Assembly: GCF_900143265.1 (NCBI RefSeq) | Contig: NZ_FRDJ01000005.1 | Coordinates: forward strand, 1 to 64,000 | Source: Fervidobacterium gondwanense DSM 13020 | GTDB taxonomy: Bacteria > Thermotogota > Thermotogae > Thermotogales > Fervidobacteriaceae | DNA length: 64,000 bases | Reading direction: 5' to 3' | In this document: positions 26,259 to 37,983 of the stretch, piece after piece | How the letters are laid out: each line of letters starts with the position of its first letter | Position numbering within the stretch: position 1 is the first letter of the stretch | Notes under the pieces: model-generated | The model's database searches: none | What the model was told of the DNA's origin: nothing | The model's input: only the letters and a program-made list of their open reading frames with translations | Position numbers and translations under genes: made by a program

Positions 26259-27200
26259 TTAGTTTTTCTCCTTTTTAAGTTCGCAGATTTTGTTGATGAC
26301 ATTTTCAACGATCACATCCACCCTATCCGTTTCGCTTAAACCTTGCGAACTGACAAGTTGCGAGATTTTCTTACCTATCAAAACCTCGACATGCTTTTTC
26401 ACTCTGCGGAGTTTTCTGTTCACAATTTCCCCGGTTTCATTTATTTTTCTTTTATGATTCTCAATCTCCGTATGCATCTCGTCAATCCCTTTACCAGATG
26501 TCGCAACTGTGAGTACTATTGGTTTAACTGTTTCGGAAAATTGAAGCACCATTTCGAGATTCGTCTTCAAAACATGAGCGCCCTCGATGTCTGATTTGTT
26601 TATTACGAAAATATCTGCTATCTCCATTATTCCCGCTTTCATGAGCTGAATTTCATCACCAGCGGCTGGAGAGAGAACCAGGACAACGGTATCGGCAACG
26701 TAAGCTATATCTATTTCACTCTGCCCTGCTCCGACAGTTTCGATTAGAATATAGTCGAATCCGTAGAGTTTGTAAAGCGTTATTACACCAAATACGGCAT
26801 CGTTCAATCCACCGACGTTCCCGCGACTGCCCATGCTTCGTATGAAAACACCACTGTCGGTAAAATGCCTCTTCATTCTAATCCTATCACCAAGCAGAGC
26901 ACCGCCAGTAAATGGACTCGATGGGTCAACAGCGATGATGCCTACCTTCTTGCCTTCCTTTCTCAGACGCGCAACATAAGCATCTGTCAGCGTACTTTTT
27001 CCCGCACCGGGGCTTCCGGTGAATCCGACTATATGCGAAGAAGATTTATTAAGCTGCTCCCAGTACCTCGACTCAACATGAAAAATGACTTCTGGGTCAG
27101 ACTCCACAAGCGTTATAGCCTTTGCAAGTCCTATTTGGTCACCATTCAGTATCCTTTCGCAGTAATGAAAGATATTTTCAACATCTATGGACTTTTTCAC
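26259..27200 (-). CDS. meaB: Methylmalonyl-CoA mutase-associated GTPase MeaB
   Basis: 313-aa G3E GTPase that chaperones cobalamin loading and protection of methylmalonyl-CoA mutase. It shows Walker A FTGSPGAGKST (about residues 57-67), VDPSSPF, the switch GAGQSEID and NKSD. The C-terminal helix region serves dimerisation. It has a GTG start 3 bases after the stop of the B12-binding subunit gene, so the two are tightly coupled. This pairing makes the mutase assignment of the neighbour much firmer. Confidence 0.94.
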   Translation of the reverse strand: MKKSIDVENIFHYCERILNGDQIGLAKAITLVESDPEVIFHVESRYWEQLNKSSSHIVGFTGSPGAGKSTLTDAYVARLRKEGKKVGIIAVDPSSPFTGGALLGDRIRMKRHFTDSGVFIRSMGSRGNVGGLNDAVFGVITLYKLYGFDYILIETVGAGQSEIDIAYVADTVVLVLSPAAGDEIQLMKAGIMEIADIFVINKSDIEGAHVLKTNLEMVLQFSETVKPIVLTVATSGKGIDEMHTEIENHKRKINETGEIVNRKLRRVKKHVEVLIGKKISQLVSSQGLSETDRVDVIVENVINKICELKKEKN

Positions 27201-27203
27201 TTA

Positions 27204-27605
27204 TTACGCAACTCCTTGTTCGACAACTTCTTGTATCTTTTTCACAACTTCGGAAATAGGCGTTCCAGGTCCAAAAACAGCTTTTATTCCCATCTTTAAC
27301 AATTCCTCAGCATCGTCTGCTGGAATGATGCCACCAACGAAAACAGGAACGTGGAAATCGTACTGATCCATAAGCTCAAAGACTTTCTTACAGACACTCA
27401 TATGTGCGCCTGAAAGTATTGAAAGCCCGATTATATCAACATCTTCCTGCATAGCAGCTCTCACAATTTCCTCAGGAGTCTGTCTTAAACCGGTGTATAT
27501 TACTTCCATACCTGCATCTCTAAGACCACGAGCGACAACTTTCGCTCCTCTGTCGTGTCCATCAAGACCGGGCTTAGCAATCAACACCCTAATTTTCTTA
27601 TCCAC
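27204..27605 (-). CDS. Cobalamin-binding subunit of methylmalonyl-CoA mutase
   Basis: 133-aa stand-alone B12-binding domain. The base-off signature is complete: LDGHDRG (Asp-x-His-x-x-Gly), LSILSGAH and the late GG in VGGIIP. In two-subunit mutases (archaea, some thermophiles) this small protein works with a separate catalytic chain of about 550 aa. That large subunit is not in this window. The pair with meaB supports methylmalonyl-CoA mutase over glutamate or isobutyryl-CoA mutases. It uses a GTG start with AAGGGGTGA upstream. Confidence 0.92.
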
Positions 27606-28041: not shown

Positions 28042-28803
28042 ATGATTAGGTTTCTCGGCGATTTCTCTATAGGTAATTGCAACGAGCTGGAATTATCTAA
28101 GAACGAATTGATAGCTCTTGCCTATTGTGCGGTCAAAGAGAGATTTTACATAAATGAGTTATATGATATTTTAGAAGAAAAAGGACGTTATGAAATTGCA
28201 TACGTAAGGAAGATCTTAAAAAATCTAAGAGCGAAGGTGTGTGATAATGTTGATATAAACGTATCTGAAGGAAGAATTAGCTCAGAATTTAGAGACAGCT
28301 GTGATATAAAAGTTTTGCCTAAGGAAGTTGAGAAGGTGGAAGAGAAAATGAAACACAGTGCTTTGGAAGACACGGATATTGAGTCTTTATTGGCACTTTA
28401 TCGTGGCCACTTTCTTCCATTCATAGAAAACCTTTGGGTCGAGAGTTATAGAGACATGCTTAAATCTATAGTCTTCTCCCTATTTTCAAAATTGTACTTG
28501 TCAAAGACTCTTTCTTCAGCATCAAAGTTAAAAATGTTAAGAATTTTTCCCGAATTGCAGATGAGCGTTATAGACTTGAGCACCTTGGAAAGCCTCTCTG
28601 GTTATGTTCGTGTCAACATTGGTGATTATGTCTTTGGAGTTAATGAAGAATTGGGGATTTTGAGAATTACGAACATACCAACGGATATGCTTTTAAATCT
28701 AATTAAGGGTTGCAGTGAAGTTTCGTTTGTTGGCGATAATGAAGTGGTATTAGTTGTGAATTCCGAAACTATACACGCTTTGATCAAGATGAAGAAAGAA
28801 TGA
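28042..28803 (+). CDS. SARP/BTAD-like transcriptional regulator (divergent)
   Basis: 253-aa protein. The N-terminus reads like an OmpR/SARP winged helix: MIRFLGDFSIGN, then a recognition-type segment YVRKILKNLRAKV, then a beta wing. A helical BTAD-like region follows (LLALYRGHFLPFIENLW, about residues 114-131). The last 60 residues form a further alpha/beta segment that I do not recognise. The gene is first in a five-gene operon and is followed by a paralogous regulator. The assignment rests on pattern, not on a search. The RBS is GGGAGG. Confidence 0.6.
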   Translation: MIRFLGDFSIGNCNELELSKNELIALAYCAVKERFYINELYDILEEKGRYEIAYVRKILKNLRAKVCDNVDINVSEGRISSEFRDSCDIKVLPKEVEKVEEKMKHSALEDTDIESLLALYRGHFLPFIENLWVESYRDMLKSIVFSLFSKLYLSKTLSSASKLKMLRIFPELQMSVIDLSTLESLSGYVRVNIGDYVFGVNEELGILRITNIPTDMLLNLIKGCSEVSFVGDNEVVLVVNSETIHALIKMKKE

Positions 28804-28840
28804 TTGAACCGTCAACCCTGGTTCAGGGGTGGTTAAGGTG

Positions 28841-29634
28841 ATGTACATCAAGTTTTTCGGAGATTGGAAGGTGTATTCTAATGGAAAGTTGATTAAAAAA
28901 TTCAAATCCCAGAAATCATTGAAGATCCTATTTTACCTTGTACTATCTGGAAGAACGAGAGTATCTGAGGATGAACTTTTCAAAACTTTCTGGATTAGAT
29001 ATAACAAAGATTATGCCAAGAAGAACCTAAATACTCTCCTGTGTTATTTGAGAACAGACTTAAAATACCTACCGATTATCTAAGCGGCGAAAGGGATTTT
29101 GTGCACATTGCGCAGAGTCATTTTCAAAGTGACTACAAAGAGTTCCTTGAAGCGGTAGAATCGGGTGATTTGAAGAGAGCAGAAAGCATGTACACCGGTC
29201 CTCTTTTAGATGGTATCAACGATGATTGGGTGAAAAAATATAGACTAACCTGCCAGAAGATGTTTGAAGAATTAAACTATCCTGCCTCTCAAAAGAACCT
29301 CGATAAAGAAAATAATCCAATCACAAAATTAAAAGCCATCCTTGAACAGCAGAAATTGACAAGAGAAAAGCATTTCATACCATTACTTCTCAGAAAAGAC
29401 GAAGTAATATTTGGATTTTCGGTCAGAAAAGGCGACATTTTGGTTGATTTTGAAGACATTGTTATCATTGTTTTAGAAAAAGGGACAAAGTCGTATGAAA
29501 AAACTATCAAAGGTTTCTTAAAAAGGGCAGGGCTGACTGAACAAGCTGTAAAGATTCTTGATGAAAATGGTGTTTTAGAAATAATAAAAATCAGGAATAG
29601 TGATTCTTATGAAAAAAAGGATTTTTCAAATTAA
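28841..29634 (+). pseudogene. Second SARP/BTAD-like regulator, interrupted by a frameshift
   Basis: A paralogue of the preceding gene. The first part (28841-29083) gives MYIKFFGDWKVYSNGK and a winged helix ending LNTLLCYLRTDLK, then runs into a stop. The continuation lies in the -1 frame (to 29634) with DYLSGERDFVHIAQ and a BTAD region (AESMYTGPLLDGINDDWVKK). Adding one A to AAAA at 29062-29065 joins them as RTDLKIPTDYLSGER, giving 264 aa, close to the 253 aa of the neighbour. No good slippery heptamer is present. It is either a real break or a sequencing error. Confidence 0.65.
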
Positions 29635-29670
29635 CGTCCATTAGCACGAAAGGAACGGAGGGATTTGCGT

Positions 29671-31038
29671 ATGAATTTGAGAGTTTTCATGATTTTGGTA
29701 TTTACGTGTTTTGTAACTCTTCTCTTCGCCTTAGAAATATCACCTAACCTCATATATCAAATTGAGAGTGCGAAATATCAATTCTCTTACGAACTCTACG
29801 TAAAGAACGATATACCTTACGAAAGTAAAGTTACTGTCGAGGTAATAGATTTCATAACTGATGGTCGAAGCTATTCGTTCGACGAACCGGACTATAAATA
29901 CAGTTTGAGAAATCACGTGTCGGTAAACGAAAAAGAGATCATTTTAGCTGTGAACGAACAAAAGCCTGTAAAGTTGGAATTCAACGTGCCTCAGAATTTT
30001 CCGGGTGCGACTGGTGTCTTCGCATTGCGGATTTCTCAGGAAAGTACCACTGGCGGTAAGGTACAGATACGCCTAAATTATATAGTACCGTTCTTTATAA
30101 GGTTCACGGTTGTTCCGATATTTCAATCAGTTAAAATTAAGGATATTTCAGTGAGGGATCTCTCTTTAGAGCCAGACGATGAATATGGAAATTATGGTTC
30201 ATTGATTACACTTGAAATTGAGAATAATGGAAATATCGGATTAATACCAAAAGGTTCTATCTTAGTTTCAGCAAGAGAACTAAAAACAACGATAGCTGAG
30301 GTTCCTATTGATTCATTTGATCTTGTTGTCTTTCCTGAGAAAAGAACTTACTACACATTTTACATACCGTGCACGCTACCGTCTGGAACGTTAGATATCA
30401 ACCTCTCTGGAAAATCATATGGTCTTGATTTTAGCACAAGTGCTTCAAAGAAAATCGAGAATAAAAACAACCTGATGATAGTCAAGACAGAACCTCAACT
30501 TGTTATTTTTAACGATAAGAACAAAAACACAGTATACAGTTTAACAATAAGCAACCTTTCTTTTATCAAAGATTCGATCATACCAATTGTCAATTCAGAT
30601 GAACTCTCGTTTATCCCCAAAAAGTCCATAATCTATCCTTACAGGACCACTTCATTCAATGTTAGAACATCAACAAAAGACTTTGGTTTCTCAGGAGACA
30701 GGATATATGAAATAAAATTCCAAGCAGAATCGTCAACAACTTTGAGGAATGTTCAACCTGCGTACGTAGTATTGCGAGGCAAGACTATAAATGCCTTGTT
30801 AGAAGGTCATTTAGAATCATCCCAGTTTGGTTCAAGTTTGGTAGTAAGCAACGAAGGGAATTGCGTTGTACAGTTCGATGTTATGTACGGCAACCAGAAA
30901 TTGAACAGCGAATCTTTGGTTATCTTCCCCGGGCAGACACTCACCATCGATTTTGGGACAGTTATTAACAAGAACCAACTACAAGTGAAGTACGGACCTT
31001 ATGGAGAAAACACAACTAACTCGCTCGAAGACTTTTGA
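29671..31038 (+). CDS. Exported Ig-like (chaperone-like) protein of the secretin locus
   Basis: 455-aa secreted protein with a signal peptide (about residues 1-20, ending LLFALE). The remainder is all-beta. The first about 150 residues resemble a periplasmic pilus-chaperone or Ig-like domain (a strand-rich region, then VKLEFNVPQNFPGATGVFALRI). Further beta domains carry phrases like SLITLEIENNGNIG that fit NEW3/CARDB-type Ig repeats. I see no catalytic motif or Cys pairs. It lies in a tight operon with secretin-like genes, so a role in export or assembly outside the inner membrane is likely. The RBS GGAGGG precedes the ATG. Confidence 0.6.
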   Translation: MNLRVFMILVFTCFVTLLFALEISPNLIYQIESAKYQFSYELYVKNDIPYESKVTVEVIDFITDGRSYSFDEPDYKYSLRNHVSVNEKEIILAVNEQKPVKLEFNVPQNFPGATGVFALRISQESTTGGKVQIRLNYIVPFFIRFTVVPIFQSVKIKDISVRDLSLEPDDEYGNYGSLITLEIENNGNIGLIPKGSILVSARELKTTIAEVPIDSFDLVVFPEKRTYYTFYIPCTLPSGTLDINLSGKSYGLDFSTSASKKIENKNNLMIVKTEPQLVIFNDKNKNTVYSLTISNLSFIKDSIIPIVNSDELSFIPKKSIIYPYRTTSFNVRTSTKDFGFSGDRIYEIKFQAESSTTLRNVQPAYVVLRGKTINALLEGHLESSQFGSSLVVSNEGNCVVQFDVMYGNQKLNSESLVIFPGQTLTIDFGTVINKNQLQVKYGPYGENTTNSLEDF

Positions 31039-31071: not shown

Positions 31072-32231
31072 GTGAAGAGAATTTCACCGGTTCTTTTAAT
31101 TATTTTGATTATGATATACTCTCTACCTTTTTTGTTTGCGTTGGAAGTATCGTTTTTCAACACTAATATAAAAGAGGCTTTGAATATTCTTTCACTTGAT
31201 ACTGGTGCTGTTATCATTTACGAACCAAATATCAGTGGTGCAGTTACGATACAAGTAGATGCTGATTTTGAAAGAGTCCTCGATTTGATTTTAATGCCTT
31301 ACAATTACTACTGGACTAAGCTCGAAAACGTATACTTTGTCGGCATCTCGGATGTAAACGCATCTTCTTTTTTAAATACTGCTAAATTCTATCAGATACC
31401 GCTTAGGTTTTGCTCTGCTGAGAAGATCATTGCTGTCATGCCGAAGGCTCTTGAAAGTTTCGTTTTGAAACCCTTTGAGCAGAATAATCTTTTAGTGTTT
31501 GCACCACCGCCGATAGCTTCGAAGATTGCAAGCTTTGTTTCAGATATCGACAAGCCGAAACAAGCTTACGAAGTTTATGTGAAGATTACGGATATAAGCG
31601 AGGCCTTTCTCTTTAACTTCCGGCTCGATTTCTCGTCCTCACGCCAGTCAATCTTTGCGCCGAATTTGTTGCAAATTCCAATTTCTGATACAAACCTAAA
31701 TATTCTTCTTAACAACAAGGAAGACTCGGAAGATTTTAAATCATATACGAAGGTAAAGTCCAAGCTTTAAGTGGTTATCAAACAAAGATAACGGCTCAGA
31801 GAAGTATTACGATTTCAAAATTCGGAGATGGTAAATTAACAAGCGGGCAGAATATAACAACAATGGAGATGACCATAACCCCAAGATTTTTGTACAACAG
31901 CTGTGTAATGGAAATCTCTTTGAAGTTAGATGGAATTCCAGATGCCAACGAGTTGAACTTTGAAACAAGGGGTGCGATACTTCAGTCAACAGTTAACTTG
32001 GAATACGGGAAGGTTTACTTGGTTGGATCGTTTAGTTATGACAAGAGTGTGCAAAAGGAAGGTGGAATCGCATTTCTTAAAGATTTGCCGATAATAGGTA
32101 GTCTTTTCAAAAGCTATTACATCGAATCAGAGAAAAGATATGTTATGTTCCTTGTAATCGTCGCAAGAAGTATAGATTTGTTGTCGAATATGAACGAATA
32201 TGTTCAAGAATCAGGAGTTGATGGAAAATGA
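31072..32231 (+). pseudogene. Secretin-family protein, interrupted by a frameshift
   Basis: The signal peptide (MKRISPVLLIILIMIYSLPFLFA) is followed by an N0/STN-like domain (about 23-85), an N1-like domain (95-165) and a short secretin core. The C-terminal part has the secretin signature GIAFLKDLPIIGSLFK. The reading frame breaks after 31738: the upstream frame ends at 31770, while the downstream frame resumes as IYEGKVQALSGYQTK. One extra A in AAA at 31738-31740 restores DFKIIYEGKV, giving 386 aa, short for a secretin. GTG start with GGAGGG; its stop overlaps the next ATG (ATGA). Confidence 0.7.
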
Positions 32232-33724
32232 GAAGAAGTCTATACAGTTTGCTCTTTTTTCTTATCTCTTCGTTTTTATTTTCCGTTGGCATTTCGGTCA
32301 CTCTTGATTTTACAAATACGCCTCTTTCTGAGATTCTCGATTTCATATCTTCAGAAACCAGTTCCGTCATAGTTTACCCTTTAGAACTCTCTAAACTTAA
32401 GATTACTATCAACTTGAAAAACGTTAATATAGAGACTGCGCTGAAAATGTTGCTTCTAAATCTCGGCTTTGATTTTGAGAAAATCGATTCAGAAACTTAT
32501 GTCGTTTTTTCGCAGACACGGTATTACCCAAGATATATCACAAACTACGAGCCAAAATACCTGGACCCGTTTACTATCAAAAGTGTTTTGGACACTTTAG
32601 ACATTGAGAATTATGTTTTTGAAAATCGAAATGTGTTTTACTCGGCGAGCAATCAGAAGGCAGATGAATTGCTTTCTATCATTTCACAGCTCGATGTAAG
32701 GAAGGATTCCAAAGATTCTTCGATTCTTTTGGTAAAGCTGTTGTCGATTTCAAAAAGCGAGTTCACGATTTCAGCAAACAAAAATGCTAACCAAAGTATC
32801 GACAAATCTAATATAGCATACATTTTGCCAAGAATCGTTGAACGAGTGAGCGAATATTCAAGAGAATATTGCTACATATCTATCCCGATCTACAAAGCTC
32901 AAGTTGAAGAGTCAACCTTGCTTTTGTCAGAAACCATCGCTGCAACAATGACAATAGAAGGTGGTTTTGGACAAGTTACTGTACGGTTGATCAACAAAGA
33001 TGGTACCGAGTTTATTAAGTTCGGAACAAAAGAAGCTGAGGGGACACTACCGCTGAACAGTATACCGATTTTGAAGAGTGCAGAGGAAAAGATTAAATTC
33101 GGAGAAGGTCAGGGCACAGGATACTCTATATTGGAGTCTGGACAATATCTGATATACTTGGAATTCTACAAATTGGAAATTGAAAATACTGATGAAGTAA
33201 GAAATTATACGTATGTAGAGAAGAAAGATAACTACAATCTAACAAAACTAAAAAGCGATATTGAACTAACATACAGCAGTTCATCGACCATACTGTCTAT
33301 TCAGAATGAAAGGAACAAAGCATCGGTTGTTGTAAGCAGTCAAGACTTTTTACCTTTGTATGCAGAGATACTAACAAGAATAGTGGATAATACTTTCATA
33401 GGAATTGGGTTTGAGGTATCAAGTTCAAAGATCTACATTTTGGTACACGACAAGATTACTCTTCCTCTTTTTGAGATTTATCCAAAAATAGGATATTCGA
33501 TAAATGATAATTCATTTGCAATCACGGCAGAAATAGACTTTGTTATCTCTTTTGGCGATTTCTCACTCGTTCCATTGATAAAATTCGGAAACCAAGGGAA
33601 TGCATTTTATGAAACCACGGGATATGGAGTGACAGCAAGATACAGAGGGAAAGATTATGAATTCAGATTAGGAACTTTATGGTCAGGTCAGTTTTTTGCA
33701 GTTACTGGAGGAATTTCTTGGTGA
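32228..33724 (+). CDS. Secretin N-domain protein with beta-rich C-terminus
   Basis: 498-aa exported protein, paralogous to the N-terminal half of its upstream neighbour. It has a signal peptide (1-19), an STN/N0 domain (LDFTNTPLSEILDFIS to VVFSQT, about 23-95) and an N1-like domain (100-160). It lacks a clear secretin pore signature. Its last 100 residues alternate polar and hydrophobic residues and end in Trp, like an outer-membrane beta-barrel strand. It starts by ATGA overlap with the secretin gene. It could be a partner or modified version of the pore. Confidence 0.6.
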   Translation: MRRSLYSLLFFLISSFLFSVGISVTLDFTNTPLSEILDFISSETSSVIVYPLELSKLKITINLKNVNIETALKMLLLNLGFDFEKIDSETYVVFSQTRYYPRYITNYEPKYLDPFTIKSVLDTLDIENYVFENRNVFYSASNQKADELLSIISQLDVRKDSKDSSILLVKLLSISKSEFTISANKNANQSIDKSNIAYILPRIVERVSEYSREYCYISIPIYKAQVEESTLLLSETIAATMTIEGGFGQVTVRLINKDGTEFIKFGTKEAEGTLPLNSIPILKSAEEKIKFGEGQGTGYSILESGQYLIYLEFYKLEIENTDEVRNYTYVEKKDNYNLTKLKSDIELTYSSSSTILSIQNERNKASVVVSSQDFLPLYAEILTRIVDNTFIGIGFEVSSSKIYILVHDKITLPLFEIYPKIGYSINDNSFAITAEIDFVISFGDFSLVPLIKFGNQGNAFYETTGYGVTARYRGKDYEFRLGTLWSGQFFAVTGGISW

Positions 33725-33755: not shown

Positions 33756-34220
33756 TCAGAACGGAAAAAAAGTAAATGAAAGGACCACTGGAGATTCTTC
33801 TTTTTCAAGTTCTTCCAAGTTTATGATGAAGAAAACAGAAGTCATTCTAAACTGTTTTCTCGGATTGAATTCAGTAGCTTGGCTCAAAGATATGACTTTA
33901 TTACCTAACCTAATTGTTATAGGTATTCTCATTTCTTGAGCAACACCGTCAGTGGATAAAACGTCCACAGAAAATTTGAATTTCTTACTTGATTCTAATG
34001 TGATGCTTCCCACAACCGTTTTTAAATCCATTTGCTCGGTTAGAATCTGCTGACTTTCATCGTAGTCCATCGAGATTTTTATTGCCGGCTTTACAGTGAA
34101 AGTAAGTACCTGACTCCAGACAGCTCCGCTTGGTCCAAATATTATATGAACTGGACCATTAGAAAACAACGAAAGTGGTATTAAAACAACAGAAAGCACC
34201 AAAAACAATCTTTTTGTCAA
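33756..34220 (-). CDS. Small exported beta-protein, paralogue 3 of the FLPF family
   Basis: 154-aa protein with a signal peptide (MTKRLFLVLSVVLIPLSLFS). The mature part shares with its two neighbours the pattern WSQ-x-L-x-F-x-V, a YDES/YDVS stretch, SVG-type and FK motifs in the middle, and a C-terminal strand LSFTFFPF. It has a TTG start with GGAGGT upstream. The all-beta, Cys-poor composition with a shared aromatic C-terminal strand suggests a surface or pilus-type subunit. I do not recognise a named family. It converges on the secretin-like operon (31-base gap). Confidence 0.6.
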   Translation of the reverse strand: MTKRLFLVLSVVLIPLSLFSNGPVHIIFGPSGAVWSQVLTFTVKPAIKISMDYDESQQILTEQMDLKTVVGSITLESSKKFKFSVDVLSTDGVAQEMRIPITIRLGNKVISLSQATEFNPRKQFRMTSVFFIINLEELEKEESPVVLSFTFFPF

Positions 34221-34254: not shown

Positions 34255-34689
34255 TCAAAACGGCAAAAATACAAACGTTAAAGACACTTGGAAGTCTCCA
34301 GCTGCTTCATCTAAATCGAAACGCAGAGATAGAATTCCTCTTATGAAGTTATTTATTTTTGTTGGTTTATCTTGAGACATTGATATTTTGGTGTTGCCTA
34401 TGTTAACACTTTTAACGACCACATCTTGAGAATCCAATACGACAGGTTCAACATACATCTTAAATCTGCTCACCGAAGCATAAATATAAATTTCTCCAAC
34501 TGACGCTGTTTTGGTGTATTCACTTACTACAAAAGTCTGGCTCTCATCGTAATACCAAGTAATTGTTATTATCTGCTCAGCAAAAGTCCGCTCAGCGCAG
34601 AATAGATAAGATATGATCAAAAGCAAAATCGCTAATACCTTGAACCGCTCAATGCTGTCACCTTTTTCGAACTGTCGTTTTATTATCAT
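34255..34689 (-). CDS. Small exported beta-protein, paralogue 2 of the FLPF family
   Basis: 144-aa protein. I start it at the ATG (34689) preceded by AAGGTGATC, giving a positively charged N-terminus, a membrane segment (VLAILLLIISYLF) and a likely cleavage after TFA. The mature part (about 105 residues) keeps the YDES, TASVG, FK and NFIRGILSLRF blocks of paralogue 1 and ends LTFVFLPF. It lacks the WSQ region at the mature N-terminus. The ORF could begin upstream at 34776, but that start has no RBS and would overlap the terminator of the preceding gene. Confidence 0.6.
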   Translation of the reverse strand: MIIKRQFEKGDSIERFKVLAILLLIISYLFCAERTFAEQIITITWYYDESQTFVVSEYTKTASVGEIYIYASVSRFKMYVEPVVLDSQDVVVKSVNIGNTKISMSQDKPTKINNFIRGILSLRFDLDEAAGDFQVSLTFVFLPF

Positions 34690-34760: not shown

Positions 34761-34788
34761 AATTAAAAGAGGGCACGAAGCCCTCTTC
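34761..34788 (-). terminator. Terminator between paralogues 1 and 2
   Basis: GAGGGC (34769-34774) pairs with GCCCTC (34780-34785) around a 5-base loop; on the minus strand it is followed by TTTTAATTT. It would let the first gene (34819-35268) be expressed more strongly than the two downstream paralogues. Confidence 0.75.
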
Positions 34789-34818: not shown

Positions 34819-35268
34819 TCAAAACGGCAAGAAGGTAAAATCGAGTTTTACGTCAAAGTCATCTTCAATGTCTGTATAACCTGTAAACGTTACACTTAAT
34901 ACACCGGCAAGAGACTTTGTAGGAACTTCTGTTGGACTATTAGCATTGTCTGAAAGAACTTGCGTGCCAACTTGGACTGCAGAAATTCCTAAGCCAGTAG
35001 GAAGTTGGTTGCCTATAGCGTAGTAAAGTTTGAATTTCTTATTAGACCAGAATTGAATATCTCCAACACTTGCAGTTCCGGTATCATAATCGACTAAGAA
35101 TGTTGATGACACATCGTATTCCCAAGTAACAACGATTTTGTGTTTTACTGAAAACTTGAGCGTCTGTGACCACTGTCCACTTGAACTCATTTGAATGGTG
35201 GTGCTTCCAGCTGCTACGAACTCCGTAAAGACAAGAACTATCAAGAGAACGATTAATAACTTCTTCAT
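34819..35268 (-). CDS. Small exported beta-protein, paralogue 1 of the FLPF family
   Basis: 149-aa protein with a signal peptide (MKKLLIVLLIVLVFTEFVAAG). The mature part is all beta, with GQWSQTLKFSVKHK at its start, TASVGDIQFWSNKKFKLYY in the middle and LDFTFLPF at the C-terminus. It has the best expression signals of the three paralogues: a consensus-like promoter, an AAAGGAGGGATGAG ribosome site, and a terminator directly after the gene. These point to an abundant exported protein, perhaps the main subunit of a surface layer or fibre. No database family is assigned. Confidence 0.65.
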   Translation of the reverse strand: MKKLLIVLLIVLVFTEFVAAGSTTIQMSSSGQWSQTLKFSVKHKIVVTWEYDVSSTFLVDYDTGTASVGDIQFWSNKKFKLYYAIGNQLPTGLGISAVQVGTQVLSDNANSPTEVPTKSLAGVLSVTFTGYTDIEDDFDVKLDFTFLPF

Positions 35269-35309
35269 ATCTCATCCCTCCTTTCTTGAAACGCTTCTCC
35301 CTTTACGCA

Positions 35310-35338
35310 AGTATAGTCCCATTATTTACAAAGGTAAA
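35310..35338 (-). promoter_or_regulatory. Promoter of the small exported beta-protein genes
   Basis: Minus strand: TTTACC (35333-35338), 17-base spacer, TATACT (35310-35315), about 42 bases before the start codon at 35268. Confidence 0.7.
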
Positions 35339-35488: not shown

Positions 35489-35944
35489 TTATTCGAGTTC
35501 AATCATTATTTGTCCAGTATCTACGTTGTCTCCTTCTTTCACGAGTATCTTCTTAATAACTCCCGGTTTATCAGCTACGATGTCGTTCTCCATCTTCATC
35601 GCTTCGAGTATCAGAACCTTCTGACCGTACTCAACTTTTTGTCCTTCCCCAACCAGTATTTTCAGTATCACACCAGACATCGGTGCCACTATTTTCGCAC
35701 CAGCACTTGTGCCGGAACTTGATGGTGCTGTTGGTGTAGTTGGCACAGTTGGTGTTGTCGGTGTTGTCGACGGAGCAGATGTTCTCTGCATTTGTTGTGT
35801 GGGTCCTGCAGCTACTTGCTGAGTTGATTGCACTGGTTGTGTTGGTTGAGATACTTGCACAGATTGTTGCACTTGTGCTCCCAATTCTTCGACCTCTACG
35901 ACGTACTCTTTTCCATTCACCCTAACAACGAATTTTCTAATCAT
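35489..35944 (-). CDS. mmdC: Biotin carboxyl carrier subunit of Na+-pumping decarboxylase
   Basis: 151-aa carrier protein. A short N-terminal strand region is followed by a Gln/Thr/Pro/Ser-rich linker (about residues 25-75) and a C-terminal biotinyl domain with EAMKMEN; Lys117 would carry biotin. This architecture matches the gamma/C subunit of methylmalonyl-CoA or glutaconyl-CoA decarboxylases. It overlaps the upstream OadG-like gene by 4 bases. BirA encoded at 57940-58653 could attach the biotin. Confidence 0.93.
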   Translation of the reverse strand: MIRKFVVRVNGKEYVVEVEELGAQVQQSVQVSQPTQPVQSTQQVAAGPTQQMQRTSAPSTTPTTPTVPTTPTAPSSSGTSAGAKIVAPMSGVILKILVGEGQKVEYGQKVLILEAMKMENDIVADKPGVIKKILVKEGDNVDTGQIMIELE

Positions 35945-36345
35945 CTATTTCCACCTCTCCAACCATATGTTCTCCATTCATCCCATCCTCTAATACCTTT
36001 GTGCCTTACTTTACTTTCTCCTTTAGACACAGGTCTTATACTTCTTACGACGACGTTCGTTCCTATCGTTGCGTAAATTGCTGCAAATATTGCCGCTATT
36101 TCTTCGGTATTATCTAAATTATCTAAAGCCTCAGAGATTTTCGCTTCGCTGAATAGTTTTTTCCCTTCATCGGTTTTTTTAGTCGCTGTCTCAACAGCTT
36201 CTCGAGGTTCTTGCGAAGGCAATTTCACTTTTTTGTTCTTGCTTACACCAAAAAGTTCCATCAGCTTGAAAACAAAATAAAGAACAACGAATATGGCAAA
36301 AACTGCTGTAACTCCTACTATCATCACTACTAATTCTTGTGGCAT
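35941..36345 (-). CDS. mmdD: Small membrane subunit (OadG/MmdD type) of Na+-pumping decarboxylase
   Basis: 134-aa protein with one N-terminal membrane helix (about residues 5-30), a charged linker and a C-terminal end rich in Trp and Gly (WDEWRTYGWRGG), as in MmdD and OadG subunits that hold the complex together. The middle (EIAAIFAAIYATIG) is a conserved helical segment of the family. It lies between the carboxyltransferase and biotin carrier genes. Confidence 0.85.
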   Translation of the reverse strand: MPQELVVMIVGVTAVFAIFVVLYFVFKLMELFGVSKNKKVKLPSQEPREAVETATKKTDEGKKLFSEAKISEALDNLDNTEEIAAIFAAIYATIGTNVVVRSIRPVSKGESKVRHKGIRGWDEWRTYGWRGGNR

Positions 36346-36391
36346 GAATCAATCACCTCTTAGCTTCTTAACTATTTTTTCAATCTAACGA

Positions 36392-37930
36392 TCACAAAGG
36401 TATGTTGCCATGTTTTTTCCTCGGTCTTGATTCTACTTTTGTGGCACTGTATTCGAGAGCTTTTTCGATCCATTCACGCGTTTCTCTTGGGTCGATGACA
36501 GCATCTATGTATCCTCTTGAGGCTGCAACATATGGATTTGCGAAGAGCTGTCTGTATTCTTCTATCTTCTGCTTTCTTGTTTCTTCTGGGTTTTCTGAAG
36601 CGTCTATTTCTTTCTTGAATATGATATTCGCCGCACCATCTGGTCCCATGACCGCAATTTCGGCTGTTGGCCATGCGGCAACAAAGTCAGCGCCAAGGTG
36701 CTTGCTCCCCATTGCAATGTACGCCCCACCGTATGCCTTTCTGAGAATTATCGTAATCTTCGGAACAGTTGCCTCGCTGTATGCATAGAGCAATTTTGCA
36801 CCGTGCCTTATTATTCCGCCATGTTCTTGTTTGACTCCTGGTAAATATCCAGGCGTATCGACAAATGTAATTATCGGTATGTTGAAAGCGTCTAAGAATC
36901 TTATGAATCTTGCCGCCTTATCTGATGAGTCTATGTCGAGCACACCGGCAAGATAATTTGGCTGGTTTGCGACTATACCGACCGATTTCCCGCCAATCCT
37001 TGCAAATCCAACTACTATGCTCTTTGCGAAATGCTCATGCACTTCGAAGAACGTTCCTTCGTCAACTATTTTCTTTATAACATCCCTAACGTCAAATCCT
37101 TTTCTCGAATCGATAGGAACTATTGTGTGGATATCAGAGATATTGGGCGTAACATATTCTTCTTGTGAAACCGGTTCTTCCATGTTGTTTTCAGGAATGT
37201 AAGAAAGCAATTTCTTGACCATCTCTATAGCCTGTCTATCGTCAGAAGCAAGGAAATGCGCATTTCCGCTCTTTGAGTTGTGCACATAAGCACCACCGAG
37301 GTCCTCTTTCGATATATCTTCTCCTGTCACTGCCTTTATGACGTTGGGACCCGTTATGAACATCTGGGCAGTCTGGTCCACCATCACTACAAAATCCGTT
37401 ATCGCAGGAGAATACACAGCACCACCTGCACACGGACCGGAGATAACCGTAATCTGCGGTATAACTCCCGATGCAATCGTGTTTCTGAAGAATATCTCTC
37501 CGTAACCGTATAAAGAATCAACACCCTCTTGTATCCTCGCACCACCTGAATCATTAATACCTACAAGAGGTATTCCCATTTTCAACGCAAGGTCCATTAT
37601 TTTTACTATCTTTTTTGCATGCATCTCGCCTAATGAACCGCCCATTACGGTAAAGTCCTGGGAAAATGCAGCAACGGGTCTTCCGTTAACTTTTCCAATA
37701 CCGGTGACAACGCCATCAGCTGGTAACTTCATCTTATCGAGTCCAAAAGTTGCGTTTCTGTGTTTTACGAATTTATCTATCTCTTCGAAAGTGCCTTCGT
37801 CAAAGAGCAGCTCAAGTCTTTCCCTTGCTGTCAACTTCCCTTCGGCATGTTGCTTTTCTATCTTATCTTTTCCACCGCCAAGCTCTATTTCTTCCTCCAT
37901 CTGTTTAAGCTTTTCAATGAGTTCGTCCAT
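36392..37930 (-). CDS. mmdA: Methylmalonyl-CoA decarboxylase carboxyltransferase subunit
   Basis: 512-aa carboxyltransferase with two crotonase-fold halves. It moves the carboxyl group from methylmalonyl-CoA to biotin (in the pump direction). Typical motifs are NDSGGARIQEGVDSL, GPCAGGAVYSPAITD, VDTPGYLPG and RKAYGGAYIAMGS. The family also includes propionyl-CoA carboxylase beta; the MmdD and MmdC genes next to it favour the decarboxylase. I start at the ATG with GGAAGGAGTGGG upstream (37930), not 37954. Confidence 0.93.
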   Translation of the reverse strand: MDELIEKLKQMEEEIELGGGKDKIEKQHAEGKLTARERLELLFDEGTFEEIDKFVKHRNATFGLDKMKLPADGVVTGIGKVNGRPVAAFSQDFTVMGGSLGEMHAKKIVKIMDLALKMGIPLVGINDSGGARIQEGVDSLYGYGEIFFRNTIASGVIPQITVISGPCAGGAVYSPAITDFVVMVDQTAQMFITGPNVIKAVTGEDISKEDLGGAYVHNSKSGNAHFLASDDRQAIEMVKKLLSYIPENNMEEPVSQEEYVTPNISDIHTIVPIDSRKGFDVRDVIKKIVDEGTFFEVHEHFAKSIVVGFARIGGKSVGIVANQPNYLAGVLDIDSSDKAARFIRFLDAFNIPIITFVDTPGYLPGVKQEHGGIIRHGAKLLYAYSEATVPKITIILRKAYGGAYIAMGSKHLGADFVAAWPTAEIAVMGPDGAANIIFKKEIDASENPEETRKQKIEEYRQLFANPYVAASRGYIDAVIDPRETREWIEKALEYSATKVESRPRKKHGNIPL

Positions 37931-37983
37931 CAATTCCCACTCCTTCCGATACATCTATCAAATCAGTTAAATCAACTAACAAT

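Follow-up and report, generated by a model that had tools for sequence, protein, structure and literature searches.

Bioinformatics analysis of a 64,000-nt stretch of DNA from Fervidobacterium gondwanense DSM 13020 (hereafter, the window) makes it somewhat probable that FLP1, the first of three paralogous genes on the minus strand, encodes the main subunit of a donor-strand fiber exported by a chaperone–secretin route, with FLP2 as the end piece and FLP3 as an accessory subunit. The proposal is built on the computed layout of the locus and its conservation, a terminator hairpin, codon bias, predicted folds, the linkage of chaperone and secretin genes, and a search in which no usher scored over the cut-off.

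From these data we infer donor-strand polymerization, export through the secretin, distinct roles of FLP2 and FLP3, and unequal protein amounts, which would fit together as follows. FLP1 would leave the cytoplasm by Sec, and the double PapD-like chaperone, as judged from its modeled fold, would hold it in the periplasm and fill its open beta-sandwich. The N-terminal strand of FLP1 (approximately residues 20–43 in the model) may then be donated to the next subunit, giving a thin extracellular fiber, for which the short secretin and its STN-domain partner, replacing an usher, would provide the exit through the outer membrane. FLP2, with no donor segment, would occupy one end of the fiber in few copies, and FLP3 would serve as an accessory link. 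FLP1 would form a transcription unit of its own, with strong translation signals and a closing terminator, and FLP2–FLP3 would be expressed from their own extended −10 promoter.

The three paralogues were named FLP1, FLP2 and FLP3 in order of transcription. FLP1 (34819–35268, minus strand; 149 aa, ATG at 35268) has a signal peptide and a beta-sandwich and ends in FTFLPF. FLP2, the proposed tip or cap subunit (34255–34689, minus strand), comprises 144 aa from its ATG, and FLP3, the proposed accessory subunit (33756–34220, minus strand), has 154 aa with a TTG start and ends in FFPF. Five plus-strand genes are convergent with the FLP genes. Putative regulator A (28042–28803; 253 aa) is conserved in position and matches no family, whereas putative regulator B (28829–29634) has a Trans_reg_C match below the cut-off. 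These are followed by the genes for an exported periplasmic chaperone, double PapD-like by predicted fold (29665–31038; 457 aa), a short secretin with STN/N0, N1 and secretin domains (31072–32231), and an STN-domain protein (32228–33724; 498 aa), which possibly ends in a C-terminal outer-membrane barrel, as suggested solely by its aromatic C terminus. The locus is flanked by B12-binding/MeaB genes (26259–27605) and biotin-carrier/carboxyl-transferase genes (35489–37954), as if a methylmalonyl-CoA cluster had been interrupted. Searches of Pfam, NCBIfam and PDB sequences gave no named family for the FLPs; no PDB sequence match was obtained at E ≤ 1, and no Pfam hit to the TasA/camelysin family was obtained for the FLPs at the same threshold. 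No relatives of FLP1 were confirmed in a collection of genome contigs, and the same applied to query A2, for which viral contigs were also covered. The SecA encoded in the window scores 1240–1266 bits against the PDB entries 3din, 3jux and 4ys0, which are T. maritima structures, and no other entry exceeds 757 bits; this places the window in Thermotogota, with Fervidobacterium as the probable genus.

The AlphaFold2 model of FLP1, obtained with 16 sequences (pLDDT 86.2), predicts a beta-sandwich, confident from residue 45 onward, and an unpaired N-terminal segment. This segment (approximately residues 20–43; 35140–35211, minus strand) is of lower confidence, residues 11–40 being strandless with a block pLDDT of 53–76, and is the candidate donor strand. 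The first six Foldseek ranks are held by the TasA fiber, the FimH pilin domain, Caf1, the CS17 pilus, Caf1 again, and CsuA/B; the best match is that to the TasA fiber (E-value, 1.6 × 10−3; TM, 0.41), and none reached E ≤ 0.001. In VIA-align, the 15 best rows (Z, 5.8–6.7) consist entirely of CanA cannulae and pilin domains of chaperone-usher systems: the pilin domains of CfaE and FimH score 6.7 and CanA scores 6.3. Further down, the Sulfolobus 0406 filament scores 5.3. CfaB is also one of the best PDB matches of FLP1. All of the Z-scores of FLP1 are below 8, and according to the caveat of the tool such values can reflect merely a common arrangement.

These scores bear on an alternative that we regard as unlikely, namely that the FLPs are exported to serve in the envelope or a surface coat, e.g., in the toga lattice, and that they donate no strand and match fiber subunits only by a common beta-sandwich. 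The fold scores of FLP1 do lie in the range usual for models with no clear match, but fiber subunits top both fold comparisons, the N-terminal segment is left unpaired in the model, and the adjacent chaperone matches pilus chaperones in both of its halves. In addition, the toga paper concerns, in its title and the passages available, homologues of OmpA and OmpB, and the words "secretin" and "fiber" do not occur in its text (PMC3387000).

The model of the chaperone (pLDDT 86.6) looks like two tandem PapD-like units. Residues 27–276 match WxLIP (Z, 14.4) and residues 25–261 match YadV (Z, 12.5), while residues 266–457 match Caf1M, CsuC and FimC (Z, 12.4–12.8), with VIA rmsd values of 4.4–6.8 Å for the pilus and WxLIP rows. 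In Foldseek, ranks 1–20 are taken by ciliary central-pair chains (TM to query, 0.17–0.27), and pilus chaperones, whose TM to target is better, follow from rank 21. By predicted fold, the protein thus resembles a PapD-like two-domain chaperone; in Pfam, it has no match to a PapD-like chaperone family, and its WxLIP score is 15.1 bits against a cut-off of 27.3. The secretin has about 380 aa in relatives, with the secretin and STN domains over the cut-off and N1 below it; the PF00263 score is 36.9 bits on the 3′ fragment in the window and 58.2 bits in a relative. When the secretin of G001 was compared with NCBIfam, it scored below the cut-offs for both PilQ (48.2 bits; cut-off, 284) and GspD (36.9 bits; cut-off, 351). 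No assembly ATPase or prepilin is found among the Pfam hits of ten ORFs of the locus and seven neighboring ORFs in the window.

The sequence-only reading had taken FLP1 for the major subunit on account of its expression signals, the first of these being a near-consensus promoter with a 17-base spacer. Both the site (TTTACC-17-TATACT; 35310–35338, minus strand) and the spacer are present, but the match is 9/12 and does not exceed chance: the weight-matrix score for the 200 bases upstream of FLP1 is 8.6, compared to a mean of 7.2 in 300 shuffles (p = 0.16), and 20 sites of this class are found in the 10-kb region versus 24.5 ± 4.0 in shuffles. The promoters mapped in T. maritima are described, in the part of the report available, as sigma-70-like with spacers near 17 bases (PMC3636130). 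FLP1 had also been said to be alone in having a promoter, which is wrong because a better promoter, that of FLP2, lies immediately beyond the terminator. This extended −10 site (TGGTATAAT; 34762–34733, minus strand) can be read as TAAACA-16-TATAAT or TTTAAA-18-TATAAT with TG ahead of the −10, matches at 10/12, and has a weight-matrix score of 9.9 (p = 0.007).

The ribosome binding site (RBS) of FLP1 (AAAGGAGGG; 35276–35284, minus strand) is indeed strong, its duplex energy of −18.4 with a 14-nt anti-SD being the second best among the 66 ORFs of the window, but it is not peculiar to this gene. With a 10-nt T. maritima anti-RBS and the best start for each gene, the values are −11.8 for FLP1, −9.4 for FLP2 and −11.4 for FLP3. 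The terminator directly 3′ of FLP1 is real: it is a hairpin in the gap between FLP1 and FLP2 (34767–34787, minus strand) with an energy of −14.7 kcal/mol when scored on the FLP1 strand, which none of 300 intergenic shuffles equaled. On that strand its U-tract is interrupted in the window (TTTTAATTT), and the terminator scanner reports the hairpin for the plus strand only.

For comparison of these signals among relatives, six orthologous loci of the same family were used, those of the window and of G001, G002 and G004, which belong to the same genus, and those of G012 and G009. A hairpin with a T-rich tail is found between FLP1 and FLP2 in all six of them, with stems that differ in sequence and energies from −14.4 to −20.4 kcal/mol, and in each locus 0 of 300 shuffles scored as high. 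The motif TGnTATAAT follows the hairpin in four of the six loci, which are all four loci of the genus (shuffle p-values, 0.007, 0.29, 0.05 and 0.03), and neither G012 nor G009 has a good promoter match behind the hairpin. Two results run counter to the reading adopted here. In G002, G004, G012 and G009, the region upstream of FLP1 contains a higher-scoring best match than that upstream of FLP2; that of FLP1 in G012 is equaled by only 3% of shuffles. The RBS of FLP2 is stronger than that of FLP1 in two of the six loci and within 0.1 kcal/mol of it in one more, and RBS strength fails to separate the FLP genes.

In the distant loci described below, the subunit genes share a strand with the chaperone gene and are located ahead of it. 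The gap between the last subunit gene and the chaperone gene contains a terminator-like hairpin in five out of six loci (G013, G015, G017, G018 and G088); in the sixth (G091), the 24-nt spacer is too short for hairpin scoring. TGnTATAAT is present behind the hairpin in G013, G017 and G018. In G014, the subunit genes are separate from the chaperone gene, and the subunit run also closes with a hairpin. A terminator that sets a subunit gene apart therefore recurs in the wider family, and it is better support for the idea of the sequence-only reading than the FLP1 promoter. The pre-chaperone spacer of G091 (L094, 8536–8559) was seen by eye to form a palindrome, rich in G+C, that surrounds the likely RBS, and may control translation.

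Codon usage was scored genome by genome against ribosomal-protein and elongation-factor genes. Both codon log-odds and CAI are higher for FLP1 than for FLP2 in all six genomes, although, given the relatedness of these genomes (97% identity between FLP1 of G002 and FLP1 of G004), the six cases do not amount to six independent tests. By log-odds, FLP1 is also ahead of the genes for the chaperone, the secretin and the STN-domain protein in every genome in which they were scored, the chaperone of G009 and the secretin of the window being absent from the cross-genome scoring. Among the 66 ORFs of the window, the CAI percentiles are 80 for FLP1 and 6 for FLP2, and the log-odds percentiles are 88 and 2, respectively. 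The log-odds of FLP1 (−0.024) is just under that of the lowest ribosomal reference gene (−0.017); by CAI, the 3′ fragment of the secretin (0.643) is slightly above FLP1 (0.635). FLP3 outranks both of its paralogues in codon score in G001, which argues against FLP1 as the major subunit, and the corresponding distant subunits of G013 have unremarkable codon usage. The ribosomal reference sets were small for G088 (14 genes) and G091 (12 genes), and G017, with its short ribosomal contig, was left out.

Comparison of the window with its five relatives revealed that FLP1 (0.42–0.48) is more conserved than FLP2 (0.37–0.42). Among G001, G002 and G004, the conservation of FLP3 is about that of FLP1, and this again argues against FLP1 as the major subunit. 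A segment of about 25 residues (WSQxLxF; W-T-Q in G012), located between the signal peptide and the conserved W-x-Y core, is shared by FLP1 and FLP3 and is missing from FLP2 in all six loci; FLP1 and FLP2 are not interchangeable because FLP2 has no such N-terminal segment. No FLP3 was detected in either G012 or G009. In G002 (L019, 9620–9994), its start and a large part of its signal peptide are gone, and in G001 (L018, 9683–10129) it is without an ATG, GTG or TTG start, an ACG with a preceding RBS being found at the start position.

The arrangement is read here as a pair of transcription units, each with a promoter of its own, rather than as one promoter attenuated by a terminator. Such units might be independently regulated, with FLP1 and FLP2–FLP3 expressed to similar levels under different conditions and no major or minor subunit among them. 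The better promoter of FLP2 in the window and the comparable RBS strengths fit this explanation, but we consider it improbable: codon bias favors FLP1 over FLP2 in all six genomes, FLP2 cannot stand in for a paralogue that carries the N-terminal segment, and FLP3 is missing in two of the loci and damaged in another two. That a single promoter transcribes all three FLP genes and the terminator attenuates FLP2–FLP3, as the sequence-only reading had it literally, is very improbable, since the FLP1 promoter match in the window is at chance level and FLP2 has its extended −10 promoter behind the terminator, with TGnTATAAT in four of six loci, even though the hairpin position is conserved in all six and G012 and G009 show no good promoter match behind it. 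The identification of FLP1 as the major subunit is thus supported by the hairpin in all six loci, codon usage, conservation, the lack of the segment in FLP2, and the absence of or damage to FLP3; most of this evidence is other than that originally given, and the original reasoning from signals held only in part.

The FLP system may be broken in the window because the secretin and regulator B genes are frameshifted, each being split there into two frames. When the corresponding stretch of G002 was compared with the window, 19 matching genes were found, of which 16 match in one frame, regulator B and the secretin are frame-split, and FLP1 matches in several frames owing solely to its paralogues. 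In G001 and G002, both regulator B and the secretin are unbroken, and the latter is a single ORF in G004 and G012 as well. Regulator B is split in G004 too, and in G009 an internal stop interrupts the chaperone. Either the system of the window strain is broken, or the frameshifts may be errors of the draft assembly. In G008, a member of the same genus, only remnants of the regulator, chaperone and FLP1 are left (L023, 5869–6923 and 9495–9731), as if the system had decayed as a unit.

In total, 103 genomes of the phylum were surveyed. The FLP profile detected subunits in eight genomes and a distant-subunit profile in 20, the union of both being 23; the distant subunits are homologous to the FLPs (hhalign, 96.3%) and adjoin chaperone–secretin genes. 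The chaperone profile had hits in 36 genomes, and the short secretin was counted by hand in 58 at a score of at least 190 bits. With one main hit counted per locus (one short hit in G014 and three further fragments in G008 were dropped), a secretin gene is located directly downstream on the same strand for 36 of 38 chaperone hits, that is, in 34 of 36 genomes, the exceptions being the decayed locus of G008 and G087, in which the secretin is on another contig. Subunits (23 genomes) and chaperone (36 genomes) occur together in 18 genomes (Fisher p = 1.8 × 10−6, relatedness ignored). In the five subunit-bearing genomes that gave no chaperone hit (G032, G036, G072, G073 and G074), a short secretin lies about 2 kb from the subunit gene, which leaves room for an undetected chaperone gene. 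No usher (PF00577) was found over the Pfam cut-off in any of the 103 genomes, six of which have sub-threshold stretches; the E. coli control was positive. A chaperone–secretin pathway might be widespread in Thermotogota, with a periplasmic donor-strand chaperone delivering beta-sandwich subunits to a short dedicated secretin and STN-domain protein, usherless donor-strand fibers as the product, and FLP1 as the major subunit in this genus; we advance this wider proposal tentatively and hold it to be possible rather than probable. In many genomes, a second STN-containing frame is found directly downstream of the short secretin (about 380–400 aa), and some secretin loci contain a larger chaperone-like frame (about 500–570 aa) and no recognized subunit.

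Among known systems, chaperone-usher pili (type 1, CFA/I class 5 and archaic Csu) resemble the FLP locus in having a PapD-like chaperone, as judged by predicted fold, and small subunits, modeled as beta-sandwiches, with an N-terminal extension. In these pili, a paralogue without the extension is found at the pilus end, and FLP2 likewise lacks the extension. The differences are the usher, for which none of the 103 genomes scored over the cut-off and instead of which the FLP locus has a short secretin and an STN-domain protein, and the chaperone of the FLP locus, which consists of two PapD-like units in one chain. For the filaments of TasA/TapA, CanA and Saci_0406, the similarity lies in the modeled fold, in which FLP1 ranks TasA first and CanA high at modest scores. 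According to excerpts of the respective reports, TasA monomers polymerize via an N-terminal strand inserted into the next subunit, with TapA as a minor partner (PMC9674648), and the Sulfolobus threads of the archaeal protein 0406 (Saci_0406) are built by donor-strand complementation, with Saci_0405 as a putative cap (PMC9715654). The FLP locus differs from these in belonging to a cell with two membranes and in having a PapD-like chaperone of its own and a secretin for the outer membrane; the part missing from Saci_0405 is the acceptor site, whereas from FLP2 it is the donor segment. The WxL locus of Gram-positive bacteria is similar in that the first half of the FLP-locus chaperone resembles WxLIP (the Z-score of 14.4 given above), a strand of which, according to the available sections of the source, is predicted to enter the sandwich of WxL (PMC10599100). 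However, none of the three FLPs has a WxL domain among its Pfam hits, and the FLP locus has a secretin. The secretins of type IV pili (PilQ) and type II secretion (GspD) resemble that of the FLP locus in the secretin and STN domains, but the FLP-locus protein has only about 380 aa and scores far below the curated values. Both TM1117 and TM0088 of T. maritima are listed as pilQ in the part of the literature source consulted (PMC5637354).

In a survey of secretion systems, the Thermotogae were, according to the portion available, the only diderm clade with none of the systems sought, among which chaperone-usher was not included, and it was suggested that they may have evolved their own (PMC4793230). 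No description of a chaperone–secretin or donor-strand system in Thermotogota was found among the matches listed in the literature, most of it open-access. If the proposed reading is true, a clade reported to have none of the surveyed secretion systems would possess a dedicated protein export route, which would answer this open question in part, and donor-strand fibers would be exportable via a secretin rather than an usher. The conserved chaperone–secretin module, together with the candidate fiber subunits, makes the question of export in Thermotogae testable.

Several features of the distant subunits (A4; L091, L093 and L097–L099) were observed in passing. Two cysteines are seen in many of them, the first within the N-terminal segment (HVPGC) and the second within the core (ICDY or CD); if the segment is donated, they could form a bond linking one subunit to another. 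In G013, the subunit genes (L091, 4530–4991 and 6183–6644) look recently duplicated, their ends being identical or nearly so, and in G017 the subunit genes likewise occur as a pair (L093, 9606–10730 and 13421–14500) with identical or nearly identical ends.
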